Part shown: positions 6,250-31,974 of the stretch, in pieces
Layout of the letters: the number at the start of each line of letters is the position of its first letter
Numbering within the stretch: the stretch's first letter is position 1
Source of the DNA: an uncultured Granulosicoccaceae bacterium
GTDB lineage: Bacteria > Pseudomonadota > Gammaproteobacteria > Granulosicoccales > Granulosicoccaceae
Direction of reading: 5' to 3'
NCBI GenBank assembly: GCA_937931165.1
Contig: CALHCI010000009.1
Span: forward strand, 62,001 to 126,000
Length of the DNA: 64,000 nucleotides
Position numbers and translations under genes: made by a program
The notes under the pieces: model-generated
The model's database searches: none
The model's input: the letters and a program-made list of their open reading frames with translations, nothing else
What the model was told of the DNA's origin: nothing

Positions 6250-7530
6250 TTGTTTGATCGCCCGGATATTGGTAACGACTGTGTCGTAGTCAACATTGAT
6301 ATTCCCGGGGAAGACAAGCACCCCGGCGAGTTCGAAGAGCTGGTCAAGTCTACCGGCGCGAACATTGTCGATATCGTCGACGTCAAAATCACGAAACCCC
6401 ATCCAAGATATTTCTTCGGCGTCGGTAAAGCCGAAGAAATCGCTGTGGCTACTGCAGACAGCAAAGCCGATCTGGTGATCGTTGACCACTCTCTTGCGCC
6501 CAGCCAGGAGCGAAATCTTGAAGGTCTGGTGAAGTCGCGTGTGCTCGACCGCTCCGGATTGATCCTCGATATATTTGCACAGAGAGCCCAGTCCTTTGAG
6601 GGGAAGCTGCAGGTAGAGCTTGCACAACTGGCGCACCTGTCAACCAGGCTGGTCCGCGGCTGGACTCACCTCGAGAGACAAAAAGGCGGGATCGGCCTGC
6701 GTGGTCCGGGTGAAACCCAGCTCGAGACCGACCGTCGGTTGATTGGTGCCCGCATCAAACAAATCCAGAAACGCTTGCAAAAGGTTGACTCTCGCAGGGA
6801 GCAAGGCAGGCGCAACCGCAAAAAGAACGAGCTGCCAACCGCTTCACTGGTGGGCTACACCAATGCCGGCAAGTCGACGCTGTTTAACCGGCTGACAGAA
6901 TCCCGTGTGTATTCTGCGGATCAGTTGTTTGCAACACTTGACCCGACCATCCGCAAATTAGACCTTGGTGCCGGTGAACATGCGCTTATTGTTGATACTG
7001 TAGGTTTCATCAGTAATTTGCCACACGAGCTGATCGAGTCATTCAAATCAACATTGCAGGAAACCCGGGAGGCGACGGTATTGCTGCATATTATTGATGC
7101 ATCAGATCCTGCCAGGCAGGAGCGACGCCGTCAGGTTGAGGAGGTACTGGGTGATATTGGCGCGAACGTGCCGCAGATTCTCGTTTACAACAAGGCAGAC
7201 CTGCTGGATTCTGCTGCCCGTGATGAATTGCTTGATGCAATGATGGGTGAAAACAGCATTGCCGTGTCTGCTGAAACCGGTGAAGGCATCGACCGTCTGT
7301 TACAGAAGGTTGCTGAGAGTGTTCGGCCGAAGCGACGGGTGGGCTGGCTTACCTTGCCAGCACAACATGCGCGGGAGCGGGCCATGCTCTATGATCGCGA
7401 TGCGGTCAAAAACGAGCGCATCGGAGAGACCGGTGAATATATACTTCAGCTTGAAATAGCAGAACACGACTGGCAACGGTTTATCAAGCATACCGGGCTC
7501 ACTGCAGAGCTTGTAAATCATCCGGGGTGA
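6250..7530 (+). CDS. hflX: GTPase HflX, ribosome-associated
   Basis: 426 residues. A ribosome-splitting or rescuing GTPase of the Obg-HflX superfamily. The N-terminal HflX domain (PHPRYFFGVGKAEEI, DRSGLILDIFAQRA, GGIGLRGPGETQLE) is followed by a G domain with P-loop GYTNAGKSTLF, DTVGF and NKAD. The start is TTG: an in-frame TGA at 6241-6243 blocks any extension, and TTG-TTT-GAT gives the family N-terminus MFDRPD. A strong GAAAGGAAG ribosome-binding element at 6221-6229 is placed for the out-of-frame ATG at 6240, which opens a five-codon frame ending at 6257 inside hflX. Translation may therefore be coupled to that mini-frame. Confidence 0.95.
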   Translation: MFDRPDIGNDCVVVNIDIPGEDKHPGEFEELVKSTGANIVDIVDVKITKPHPRYFFGVGKAEEIAVATADSKADLVIVDHSLAPSQERNLEGLVKSRVLDRSGLILDIFAQRAQSFEGKLQVELAQLAHLSTRLVRGWTHLERQKGGIGLRGPGETQLETDRRLIGARIKQIQKRLQKVDSRREQGRRNRKKNELPTASLVGYTNAGKSTLFNRLTESRVYSADQLFATLDPTIRKLDLGAGEHALIVDTVGFISNLPHELIESFKSTLQETREATVLLHIIDASDPARQERRRQVEEVLGDIGANVPQILVYNKADLLDSAARDELLDAMMGENSIAVSAETGEGIDRLLQKVAESVRPKRRVGWLTLPAQHARERAMLYDRDAVKNERIGETGEYILQLEIAEHDWQRFIKHTGLTAELVNHPG

Positions 7531-28239: not shown

Positions 28240-29418
28240 TCAGCTACGCTGTTGAATTATATTGTCGAGTGCGCTGTGGTGGTATTCGCTAAATGAATTT
28301 TTCTTTATGTCAAACCAGCTATTCAGTATTTCACCATACAGTGCCCGATAATCGGTGGTGAAGTCGGGGTCTTGTCCGGGCTTTAAGGCGTCGAGTGGTG
28401 GTGCGTTGCCGTACAGTCCGCCGTTGATATTGCCGCCAATAACAAAATGTGGTGCCGCTGTTCCATGATCGGTACCCTGCGATTTGTTCTCCCATACCCG
28501 TCTGCCGAATTCGGAATAAGTGACGACTAATGTGTTGCGCCATTCTCCATCTGACTCTAAAGCTTTTTGAAAACCGTTCAGCCCGTTTGCGAGTTGCGAT
28601 AATAATCCGCTGTGCCGGTAAAGCTGATACTCATGAGTGTCGAATCCATCGAGTCTGACCCGATAGACGGGGGTATCGAGCCCCGCTCTGATTAAACGTA
28701 CCACCTGTTGCAGTTGGTAACCGAACTCACCACCGGGAATTGCAGTGGTGCCACCGGTTTCCTCGAGCTTTGACGAAATACCATGCAGTGACTGCTCGAG
28801 CTCGGTGATTCTCTGCGCAACCATGGCGATCGATTCGTTGGCCACGGTAATGTTGGCACTGGCAGTTGAGCGAACGGTGTCGAACTGTTCCGGAGAGGTC
28901 ATGCTAAGCCAGCGCCCTCCGTCGCTTGAGAAAAGGTTCATATCCTCCGCGAAGCTAATGCCATGTGCGTCGTTTACTCTTCTTTTAAGTTTGTGTTCAA
29001 TGTCATGAGTCAGCCAGCCTGAACGGCGTTGTTTGTTGCCGTCGCCACCGGTTTCCCACAATGCTATTGATTTGAAGTGTGATCGATTCGGGTTGGGATA
29101 CCCCAGACCGTGTATCCAGGCCATTTGTCCGCGGTCCCACAGTCGCATGAGTGGTTGCAACGCATTGTGCAGTGCATAGTCATCTGTCAGTGCAATAGTT
29201 TGCGGACGCGGCAGTGCTATGGTTGGTCGCAGGCTTCGGTAGTAGTTGTTGCTGTAAGGTACCAGTGTATTCATGCCGTCGTTAGCGCCAGCGAGCTCTA
29301 CCAGAACCAGTCTTTTGCCGGTGGTGCTTCCTGCCTGCAACTGATTGGCGAAGGATTGGTGATAACTGGTTGAAGCCAGTGCAGCTAAAGTTAGCTGTAG
29401 CAGTTGTCGTCGATTCAC
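28240..29418 (-). CDS. DUF1501 family exported protein
   Basis: 392 residues from a GTG start with GGGAG upstream. The N-terminus MNRRQLLQLTLAALAST is a twin-arginine-like signal. DUF1501 proteins have an alkaline-phosphatase/sulfatase-like fold. Here LVLVELAGANDGMNTLVPY, HNALQPLMRLWDRGQMAWIHGLGYPNPNRSH (split across 94-125) and TYSEFGRRVWENKSQGTDHGTA are diagnostic. The function is unknown. The gene lies 60 bases downstream of the DUF1800 gene, and the two families almost always occur as a pair in planctomycetes and proteobacteria. Confidence 0.9.
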   Translation of the reverse strand: MNRRQLLQLTLAALASTSYHQSFANQLQAGSTTGKRLVLVELAGANDGMNTLVPYSNNYYRSLRPTIALPRPQTIALTDDYALHNALQPLMRLWDRGQMAWIHGLGYPNPNRSHFKSIALWETGGDGNKQRRSGWLTHDIEHKLKRRVNDAHGISFAEDMNLFSSDGGRWLSMTSPEQFDTVRSTASANITVANESIAMVAQRITELEQSLHGISSKLEETGGTTAIPGGEFGYQLQQVVRLIRAGLDTPVYRVRLDGFDTHEYQLYRHSGLLSQLANGLNGFQKALESDGEWRNTLVVTYSEFGRRVWENKSQGTDHGTAAPHFVIGGNINGGLYGNAPPLDALKPGQDPDFTTDYRALYGEILNSWFDIKKNSFSEYHHSALDNIIQQRS

Positions 29419-29478: not shown

Positions 29479-31974
29479 TCACTGAAGCTGAAATACCGGG
29501 TGTTCGAAAATAAGCCGCAGCTGTTCAATGGCGGGGTGACTCTCTATTCCTGTGAGTTCCGGAAACTGTTGTGGTGAAATACCCGGTAACAGCAGCTGTG
29601 TAAAAGACAGGTTCGCCAGTGCCAGCTTTTCTTCTGCCTGGTTTGCGGAAGTAACATGGGGTGTGAATTGTACTGCAGGTTGAAGTGGCGGCTCGGTTCT
29701 TCGTACCTGCGAATCTACTGAAACATTCAAACCATCTGTAAACTGTTGCTGAATGGACGGTTGCAGGTTTCTGAGCGATTCTGCCCATCGCTCCAGTGCC
29801 TTTGACTGTTCCTGATTGAACTCACGTGGTGATTCGCGAGCCTCTGTCAGAAGTTTTTCAGCGTTTAAAAACAGACTATGAATAATTAATCTTTCCGCAC
29901 TTTTCAGTGATTGATTATGACACTGCATAGTGTCATTGCTTGATGTGCTGTCGAGTGGGAATGCAAGCGTTTTGCGCGCTGGATTGATGTCGTTTGTCCA
30001 GGCGCACTCAGGCCAGATAGCAACGCAATCCGGCCAGCAACCGAAGTTATTAATCTCTAAACGCGGTGCATTACCATTAGTGGAATGCAAATGAAATGAA
30101 TAAGTCGGGTAGTGCTTGTTGTAGGCATAAAAATCCTGCAAGGTCAGTGTGAGGTCCAATTGATCAGCCTCTGCTCTGACCCAGTTTATATGTGCAGATG
30201 CTGCAAAAAACTGTTTGCTACTTTCGGGAATCGCAGCAGGATTTTTCGTGATGGGCAGACTGACATGGCCCTGACAATACAGTCTTCCGGCATTAAGGGC
30301 TGACCGTGGGGGACACTTGCTGGTTTGAGTGCCGGCAGCGGCATCGTGCCAGGTTGTACCAATTGTCGCGCCGCGTACAAACAGATTCCGGTCACCATCT
30401 TGTCCACCGTCGTCATTTAAAAAATGCACGCGCATAGACTGTGCTTTTTTCAGTGTGTTCTGTGTTATCGGAAAGCGGACTACCTGCCATGGCAGATCGG
30501 CCACATCGTTTACCCTGCCGTACTTTGTGGTTTCATGCCCACCAGCCAGCGCACGCTTTCCACTATCCCAAAGCAGTTCGTTTTTTTGGCTTAACAGCTC
30601 GACACGGTAGTCGGCAGATCCGCGGTACTCTTCCGCCGCGACATGCAGCTCCAGTTGTGCAGAATCTGATGTTGTAGCCATCATATTGGCCATTGAGTTG
30701 CCATTCATTGATGGATGCTGTTGGTGCGTTTTATGTGGTTCTGACAATGCAATTTTTTCGATGGCAGCATAGCGGTTTAAGAGCCTGCCCGAGGTAATCC
30801 AGTTATTTCCGCCGTTCCAGCCAGCGACGTTAGGCGGTGCGAAAAGATTCATCCCGCCTCTGGCCAACAGCGATGGGATTTGCTGGTTAAATAGCTTTGG
30901 GTAGTCAAGCGAGCGCGCTGTACCAACCAGTAGTTGTACAGGAGACTTTATAATGGAAGCTCTCGATTCGGCTGACCAGAAAGCATTCTGCTCAAGCAGG
31001 GTGCGGTACAGCACGTGAATATCAAAATCACTTGCGACAAATGCCGAAACCAATGGTGTTAGTTGCTCGCGGGTAGCAGGCCGGTCTGAGACAAATGCCT
31101 GCCAGAATCTGTCGGCAATGTGATAGGCGCTTGCGGGTTGCTGTAAAATCAGATCAATCAGGTTGTCGCCATTAAAGTCACCGGACTGCCCGAATAGCGT
31201 TTTGTCGGTGTTGTCGACTTTCCAGCTTTGCAATTCGAATGATAGATTTTTGTTTTGCGAAATACCATATCCGGTCAGTGCCCGCGCGGCCTCACGTACC
31301 GTGTGTTCGCTAAAATTTCCTTCACCCAGTGTAAAAAGTTCGAGCAGCTCACGAGCCAGATTCTCGTTGGGCGCACCTTTGCGATTGCTTAAATTGTCGA
31401 GAAAATTAAGCAACGCCGGGTCACGCAACATGGCCTTGAGCAATACTCGGAAGTTGCCGACCGCGTGTTGTCGAAAGGTGGCATTTTGCATCGCCATGGC
31501 TATTGATTGCCGGTTGACGCCGTCGTAACTTGTCGCAAAATGGTTGTGCCAGAACAACACCATTCTCTCGGTTTGTGGAGAGGTTGTGGTGAGCAGATTA
31601 TCAACCCACCATTGTCTTAATTCGGTTAGTTCTGCATCACGACGTCGATCAAACGTTCTTTTGTCATCTGACTGCAGATCTTGTCTGGTCCAATATAGCG
31701 GGGCGGCGTGGCGAGTCCAGGCTGGCATTGGCAATGCCGGGCTTTGGGTAAAACCGTCCATGATGTAATCGATGGCTTCAGACCGGGACTTTCCGGTCAG
31801 GTGTTGAAGTTCTTCGATGGTGGCACCAAGCCCGGTACGCGAGATCAGGTGCCGGGCATCAGCCAATGAAAGCCTGGACTCGAGCGCGTTGTTTGCAGCG
31901 GCCTGTGCGGCGCTGGTCAGGGTAACAAACAGCAGAATGGAACATTGCCAAATTATTGCGTGTCTTATGCGCAT
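29479..31974 (-). CDS. DUF1800 family exported protein with carbohydrate-binding-like insert
   Basis: 831 residues, well above the usual 450-600 of DUF1800. It has an N-terminal signal peptide (residues 1-26, cleavage near AQA-AAN). The DUF1800 core is recognisable: ARHLISRTGLGAT, MVLFWHNHFATS, NENLARELLELFTLGEGNF, PNVAGWNGGNNW. Between the core and the C-terminal helix, residues about 430-555 form a beta-rich insert containing VHFLNDDGGQDGDRNLFVRG. That segment resembles the calcium/sugar site of CBM60/CBM36 xylan-binding modules. A second beta-rich segment with Cys pairs follows (about 590-700). This insert suggests polysaccharide contact at the cell surface or in the periplasm. It is first in the pair with DUF1501. 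Confidence 0.88.
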   Translation of the reverse strand: MRIRHAIIWQCSILLFVTLTSAAQAAANNALESRLSLADARHLISRTGLGATIEELQHLTGKSRSEAIDYIMDGFTQSPALPMPAWTRHAAPLYWTRQDLQSDDKRTFDRRRDAELTELRQWWVDNLLTTTSPQTERMVLFWHNHFATSYDGVNRQSIAMAMQNATFRQHAVGNFRVLLKAMLRDPALLNFLDNLSNRKGAPNENLARELLELFTLGEGNFSEHTVREAARALTGYGISQNKNLSFELQSWKVDNTDKTLFGQSGDFNGDNLIDLILQQPASAYHIADRFWQAFVSDRPATREQLTPLVSAFVASDFDIHVLYRTLLEQNAFWSAESRASIIKSPVQLLVGTARSLDYPKLFNQQIPSLLARGGMNLFAPPNVAGWNGGNNWITSGRLLNRYAAIEKIALSEPHKTHQQHPSMNGNSMANMMATTSDSAQLELHVAAEEYRGSADYRVELLSQKNELLWDSGKRALAGGHETTKYGRVNDVADLPWQVVRFPITQNTLKKAQSMRVHFLNDDGGQDGDRNLFVRGATIGTTWHDAAAGTQTSKCPPRSALNAGRLYCQGHVSLPITKNPAAIPESSKQFFAASAHINWVRAEADQLDLTLTLQDFYAYNKHYPTYSFHLHSTNGNAPRLEINNFGCWPDCVAIWPECAWTNDINPARKTLAFPLDSTSSNDTMQCHNQSLKSAERLIIHSLFLNAEKLLTEARESPREFNQEQSKALERWAESLRNLQPSIQQQFTDGLNVSVDSQVRRTEPPLQPAVQFTPHVTSANQAEEKLALANLSFTQLLLPGISPQQFPELTGIESHPAIEQLRLIFEHPVFQLQ

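Follow-up and report, generated by a model that had tools for sequence, protein, structure and literature searches.

The solved structure closest to the domain described here is that of vCBM60, a carbohydrate-binding module from a Cellvibrio japonicus xylanase (2xfd, 2xfe, 2xhh and 2xhj), which is appended to a glycoside hydrolase. In a legend of one review, 2XFD is presented as the CBM60 of a xylanase and is among the panels depicting bonds from adjacent equatorial hydroxyls to Ca2+ (PMC4444583). In other lineages, the genes for DUF1800 and DUF1501 proteins have been reported to lie near chitin synthase genes and to be transferred along with them; this is the same gene pair as that discussed below, and CBM60 is not mentioned in the available text of that report (PMC5122149). 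As of 2015, DUF1501 was described as lacking any characterization (PMC4452313), and a biochemical function was not reported for either family in the accessible portions of the open-licence literature. The same portions yielded no mention of a CBM60 within a DUF1800 protein, which cannot show novelty.

Here we examine a stretch of 64,000 nucleotides (the window) from an uncultured Granulosicoccaceae bacterium (assembly GCA_937931165.1, contig CALHCI010000009.1, positions 62,001 to 126,000). An open reading frame with an ATG start at 29479..31974 (-) encodes an 831-residue DUF1800 protein with an internal insert; all other window features given below are also on the (-) strand. The first part of the insert very probably belongs to the CBM60 fold family and probably mediates Ca2+-dependent sugar binding. 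Whereas vCBM60 is appended to its enzyme, this module is inserted in its host protein.

Results

The original prediction of a CBM60-like segment in this DUF1800 protein is borne out by profile searches. The Pfam profile PF16841 (CBM60) was matched at E<=0.01 by 21 of the 25 sequences scanned, the window protein included, with a best E value of 1.5e-8. The window protein itself matches over residues 483-547 (E 3e-4, 21.7 bits, under the cut-off of 28.2), and homologous inserts pass the cut-off. Among 48 genomes of the order Granulosicoccales, CBM60 is matched at E<=0.01 in 28, and the curated cut-off is passed in 19, all of which have one or more such places in the insert; 31 of the 33 CBM60 places listed for the order are the DUF1800 insert, and the other 2 belong to one unrelated protein (L077, genome G042). 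When 28 inserts were aligned with 7 other CBM60 domains using hhalign (probability 95.5%, E 1.6e-8), Asp521 was paired with the Asp of the vCBM60 TND motif, DRN530 with GRD, and Cys567-x-Gly with CNG. A profile of the CBM60 part, compared with PDB sequences up to E 10, retrieved two vCBM60 chains alone, with weak E values of 0.22 and 0.23, and the whole insert retrieved a telomerase protein alone (E 0.51-0.59). Two of our alignments (A1 and A8) omit the partial loci L024 and L033 as well as L004, which is the same gene as that of the window, and a third (A2, 25 rows) leaves out L007, L010, L017, L024 and L033, which are cut or partial.

Structure prediction, suggested at the outset as a check, led to the same family. 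In a template-free model of the whole protein built from 13 sequences (mean predicted local distance difference test score 77.6), Foldseek placed vCBM60 (2xfd) at rank 1 (probability 1.00, E 4.7e-3), and VIA gave Z 10.9 with a root-mean-square deviation (rmsd) of 2.4 over 104 aligned residues, the next family reaching 6.4. A model of the insert alone matched vCBM60 more closely (Foldseek E 5.8e-4; VIA Z 12.1, rmsd 2.4, 105 residues aligned, next family 7.2), with block means of confidence of 68-96 in the CBM60 part and 31-64 in the second part. The predicted fold of the first part of the insert is that of the vCBM60 beta-sandwich, shared over 105 of 109 residues, and the likeness extends to the ND...RD/DRN loop and to a Cys-x-Gly ahead of the last strand; the two domains differ in that identity is about 16% and the ligand loop of the present module is longer. 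CBM60, relative to which CBM36 has a circularly permuted order of strands, is the colinear match of both structure and profile. The next structural matches, at Z 6-7, are the PLAT domains of pancreatic lipase and lipoxygenase, also beta-sandwiches, and C2-like toxin domains, so that a membrane- or lipid-binding domain of PLAT/C2 type, rather than a sugar-binding one, has to be considered. However, these matches fall clearly under vCBM60, by 4-5 Z units, sequence support for PLAT was not found, and among the families searched the sequence profiles point to CBM60; we consider a PLAT/C2-like domain very improbable.

The segment is embedded, as originally described. The DUF1800 core occupies approximately residues 42-412 (30739..31851), as judged from PF08811 and from model helices that continue up to 409; the PF08811 match, a curated profile match, covers residues 42-433 (E 1.5e-95, 321 bits, profile positions 1-362 of 419). 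In insert-free relatives (L103, L181 and L182, compared by eye), 30-50 residues separate the conserved stretch PPNVxGW...LLxR, which has LTRR at the LLxR-type stretch in L103, from the terminal LLP/LLL...PxFQL/PVYQL. In the window protein, the same two ends are found at residues 380-401 and 794-831, about 390 residues apart, and hence about 350 extra residues (approximately 430-780) are inserted in a loop just ahead of the DUF1800 C-terminus (LLLPG...HPVFQLQ, 29482..29595, assigned by eye in comparison with insert-free proteins). The insert is beta-rich, as predicted, but longer than the 120 residues first proposed: the CBM60-like part alone, delimited by profiles and predicted structures, spans about 140 residues (436-577, 30244..30669) and includes Cys554 and Cys567.

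The second beta-rich part that had been noted after the CBM60-like segment is a Cys-rich region at residues 587-690 (CWPDC..WPxCAW..CH, 29905..30216), defined by model strands and by the invariant Cys646, Cys650, Cys657 and Cys685. This region, to which no family or fold was assigned, is better predicted in the full-length model (confidence 62-84), where it contains strands. Because two relatives that lack the CBM60 module (L078 and L079) also possess it, the region may predate the rest of the insert.

Residues 520-535, NDDGGQDGDRNLFVRG, the motif that was originally compared to the ligand loop of CBM60, indeed align with it in hhalign, Asp521 and DRN530 falling on ND and GRD of vCBM60. Within this motif, residues 520-533 (NDDGGQDGDRNLFV, 30376..30417) constitute the candidate Ca2+/sugar loop, as indicated by conservation and by the alignment with the vCBM60 loop. 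Asp521, Asp528, Arg529, Asn530, Trp469, Gln550, Cys554 and Cys567 are invariant in all 28 aligned inserts, so that the candidate Asp/Asn ligands are conserved in homologues; Asn520 is retained in 27 of the 28, and position 481 is Asp or Glu in 27 and Asn in 1. We take Asp55 and Asp60 of vCBM60 to be the Ca2+ ligands and Trp85 to be the residue that stacks on the sugar. In the alignment, Asp55 is opposite Asp521, Asp60 is opposite Asn530, so that the second Asp is an Asn here, and Trp85 falls on the invariant Gln550; Cys554 is one column off the first Cys of vCBM60. Given that the ligand candidates are aligned whereas the stacking Trp appears to be replaced, it is likely that the Ca2+ site was kept and the sugar platform changed.

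This apparent substitution also bears on the identity of the ligand. Xylan binding in the manner of the named CBM60 founder, with the DUF1800-DUF1501 pair involved in xylan degradation, would be in line with the origin of 2XFD from a xylanase, according to PMC4444583, with the Pfam name of the family (xylan-binding) and with the detection of GH10 matches in 31 of the 48 genomes of the order. However, GH10 was found in 0 of the 14 genomes of the window's genus, drafts that are 77-98% complete, whereas the insert is present in 12 of these 14 (GH11 and other xylanase families were not tested), and no stacking Trp is seen in the alignment. Considering the invariant Gln550 at the Trp85 position together with the GH10 distribution, which does not track the insert, xylan is not supported; the ligand is probably not xylan, and a role of the pair in xylan degradation seems very unlikely. 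The clue to the substrate that the original prediction expected from a glycan-binding insert is limited; since a single lineage has added the module, it is informative on the DUF1800 family only indirectly.

The distribution of the CBM60 module is close to that of a single clade. A search for the insert matched 32 of the 48 genomes of the order, and in 30 the CBM60 part is present, the matches in G004 and G024 being to the Cys-rich part alone. DUF1800 matches number 191 and are spread over 47 of the 48 genomes, so that most DUF1800 proteins of the order lack the insert; the window's genome contains three DUF1800 matches, one of them with the insert. A scan with one pattern from the Cys-rich part, which is blind to proteins that have the CBM60 part alone, gave 12 loci, for which the nearest named relatives are 11 Granulosicoccaceae and 1 Chromatiales. 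Beyond the order, the census showed the module to be rare in the genomes sampled: CBM60 was detected in 6 of 369 genomes sampled from the class and, across the phylum, in 5 of a sample of 398. Five of the 369 class genomes were matched by the insert profile: G107 and G068 in non-DUF1800 proteins, G236 in full, and two members of the order. DUF1800 itself was found in 48 of the 369 at E<=1e-10, and of the 6 class genomes with CBM60, two, G026 (in the order) and G236, have it in a DUF1800 protein. At 14 further CBM60 loci, which come from 11 genomes (G042 of the order and 10 that do not belong to it), the DUF1800 core profile had no match in the DNA compared, which was mostly the CBM60 match with 1.5 kb flanks.

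In a tree of 50 DUF1800 cores, from which the short rows of L017, L090, L092, L093 and L095 were left out, the 32 CBM60-containing rows require 2 label changes (bootstrap range 2-3), a value that was reached in 0 of 500 shuffles (mean 15.0); the row of L084 stops inside the CBM60 region, and its label comes from the first half. The CBM60 clade has support of 83/82 and includes a single row without the module, L078, in which the Cys-rich part is present; in the sister row, L079, the Cys-rich part is again found and CBM60 is missing. These observations fit an order of events in which the Cys-rich region came first, followed by one gain and then one loss of CBM60; loss of CBM60 in L079 is a possible alternative.

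Similar CBM60 domains were found in other protein contexts. The CBM60 domains of the subtilisin-like proteins of L039, L040 and L041 (identified by eye; Pfam about 60 bits) have an ND...EDRNLIV loop resembling that of the present module but are C-terminal to the protease-like part and lack the Cys pair. In G107, a 752-residue protein with EF-hand-like repeats (by eye) and a coiled coil (L037:532-2787 (-)) contains a domain of the same subtype as the module, with GESYRGAPxYxV, GDRNLFV, the Cys pair and LYCGGTV, although its host is not a DUF1800 protein. The presence of GDRNLFV together with the Cys pair in this host suggests that the CBM60 subtype moves between unrelated proteins.

The partner gene of the DUF1800 gene, located 60 bases downstream (28240..29418), has a GTG start and encodes a 392-residue DUF1501 protein (PF07394, E 2.9e-32) with a twin-arginine N-terminus, NRRQLLQLT; Arg3 and Arg4 are invariant in all 29 aligned DUF1501 rows. 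This agrees with the twin-arginine translocation (Tat) motif reported in PMC5122149. The DUF1800 protein is probably secreted as well, to judge from a probable Sec signal peptide read by eye at residues 1-26 (...SAAQA-A, 31897..31974), over which the model has a low-confidence helix (residues 3-31). NCBIfam contained no match for either protein, and the single DUF1800 sequence matched no solved structure up to E 10.

DUF1501 adjoins the CBM60-type DUF1800 gene at 27 of 29 distinct loci, the window included; the 29 are what remains of 33 stretches after removal of L057 and L058, in which the insert is missing, L059, which repeats the contig stretch of L052, and L060, where DUF1800 is absent. 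One of the two exceptions, L046, is at a contig end, and the other, L048, has an intact CBM60-type DUF1800. One alternative is that the CBM60 fold has been retained for structure or protein docking, such that Ca2+ would steady the loop and the module would hold DUF1501 or orient DUF1800, with no sugar involved. The lack of a conserved stacking Trp in the alignment while Gln is invariant, the partner gene at 27 of 29 loci and the better prediction of the second beta part alongside the DUF1800 core all favor this possibility. However, insert-free DUF1800-DUF1501 pairs occur in the same genome (L057 and L058), implying that pairing as such does not generally require the module, and few parts of the module are as conserved as the loop with which vCBM60 holds Ca2+. 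We consider such a structural or docking role rather unlikely and prefer glycan binding.

What the pair might do to a glycan is suggested, if faintly, by DUF1501. Profile comparison between DUF1501 and sulfatases over the DNT..SDNG segment, which corresponds to NTLVVTYSEFGRR...GTDHG in the window protein (28462..28536), gave a weak probability of 42.7% (P 2.5e-4); as a yardstick, the comparison of sulfatases with phosphodiesterases yielded 55.7%. The four other comparisons were in the range 0.04-0.15%: DUF1501-phosphodiesterase (0.15%), DUF1800-sulfatase (0.09%), DUF1501-DUF1800 and DUF1800-phosphodiesterase. The profiles were built from 19 of 30 sulfatase and 9 of 16 phosphodiesterase loci, selected with length and motif filters. 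Searched against the PDB, the DUF1501 sequence found viral nucleoproteins alone (E 0.045 or worse), which we regard as chance matches, and among the non-significant matches of the DUF1501 profile is a lipoteichoic acid primase (E 0.35), an enzyme that we take to be sulfatase-like. The profile comparison lends weak support to DUF1501 being an enzyme of the alkaline-phosphatase type, the clan in which Pfam places DUF1501.

Genes that recur near the pair within sub-clades include those for glucokinase, FolD, an aminotransferase-like protein (by eye) and a sensor kinase with its response regulator. The latter two, found downstream on the same strand in L067, L071 and related loci, resemble the proteobacterial dedicated (marine) sortase system; the two proteins scanned, from L071 and L068, both scored under the cut-off (kinase 371.6 against 612.2, regulator 323.9 against 335.7). 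An ABC-2-type exporter pair (by eye) is downstream in one sub-clade (L049, L050, L068, L070 and L071).

The carbohydrate context was further explored by scanning 24 other DUF1800 proteins, mostly picked for length and not including L097, L103 and L179. One of these had three CBM96 matches and 4 had a glucuronyl-epimerase-type beta-sandwich, whereas the rest had Ig-, cadherin-, PKD-, Calx-beta- or bMG3-type domains, or nothing named. A match to Planctomycete PSD1, considered as a possible relative of DUF1800, was found once, in 1 of the 25 sequences that were also scanned for PF16841. In the 1375-residue DUF1800 protein of L087:4341-8465 (-) (genome G412), the three CBM96 matches are N-terminal to the core. 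The long DUF1800 proteins of L090, L091, L171 and L174 combine a glucuronyl C5-epimerase-type beta-sandwich with PKD domains. In all five, as in the window protein, the DUF1800 core is joined to carbohydrate-related beta-sandwiches, but these modules are N-terminal and belong to other families, whereas the present one is internal. The window's genome has 10 sulfatase matches, which fit the use of sulfated polysaccharides, and Granulosicoccus is prominent in surveys of kelp and macroalgae (PMC9238374, for example). The link to chitin synthase described elsewhere was not seen here, PF03142 being found in 0 of the 48 genomes of the order (other chitin synthase families were not tried).

The target would not have to be algal. 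In a variant that is compatible with our preferred explanation, the pair would build, modify or secrete the bacterium's own surface polysaccharide. In keeping with this, the pair accompanies chitin synthase genes in other bacteria, as reported in PMC5122149, it is kept in genera of the order both with and without GH10, and the ABC-2-type exporter pair lies downstream of it in some loci of one sub-clade. Against it stand the absence of PF03142 matches from the 48 genomes of the order and the fact that no synthesis gene was recognized in the recurrent neighbor clusters examined, although most single neighbors are not annotated; we regard this variant as possible but tentative.

Discussion

Taken together, the results translate into a model in which the DUF1800/DUF1501 pair is exported and is held on a polysaccharide by a Ca2+-dependent glycan-binding module. 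Under this model, a beta-sandwich of the CBM60 family, acquired a single time, by insertion, in a DUF1800 protein of the Granulosicoccaceae lineage, would bind a glycan via Ca2+ held by the NDxxG..GDRN loop. The DUF1800 protein and DUF1501, its operon partner, would be exported together; DUF1501, which would take the Tat route, is probably sulfatase-like and a member of the alkaline-phosphatase superfamily. Through the module, the pair would attach to a polysaccharide, either on an algal host or at the cell surface, and there an acidic group (sulfate or phosphate) would be removed or transferred by DUF1501, perhaps aided by DUF1800. This is the best explanation that we can offer for the data as a whole, and the chances that it is correct in full appear about even; as a working model, action of the pair on a polysaccharide is reasonable, with arguments that we find evenly balanced. 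The interpretation given in the original prediction is partly supported.

Several observations weigh against this explanation. With respect to the module, the window protein itself is under the Pfam CBM60 cut-off, PLAT/C2-type sandwiches reach appreciable Z scores, and Asp60 and Trp85 of vCBM60 align with Asn530 and Gln550, respectively, in the latter case with a register that is uncertain by 1-2 residues. With respect to the partner, the similarity of DUF1501 to sulfatases is weak and does not extend to the Phosphodiest family, and the DUF1501 profile found nothing significant in the PDB, mostly coiled coils. As to the genomic context, no DUF1501 match was detected at L048, in a draft genome, although the contig continues after position 6472; DUF1501 is the only constant neighbor, the other recurrent ones differing by sub-clade; and the chitin synthase association reported elsewhere finds no counterpart in the PF03142 search.

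The CBM60 module is found here outside the usual carbohydrate-degrading enzymes, with an apparently changed binding site, and in a marine group related to associates of kelp and macroalgae. In a broader and more speculative view, which we consider conceivable although the odds seem to be against it, DUF1800-DUF1501 would be a widespread pair that is exported and modifies polysaccharides, one subunit being sulfatase-like; different lineages would plug different modules into it for different glycans, CBM60 internally in Granulosicoccaceae and CBM96 or epimerase-type sandwiches N-terminally elsewhere. The module of about 140 residues is well predicted alone and could be expressed alone for glycan arrays, offering an experimental way to the substrate of the pair. 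As such, it provides a testable hint that the DUF1800 family and its partner act on polysaccharides.

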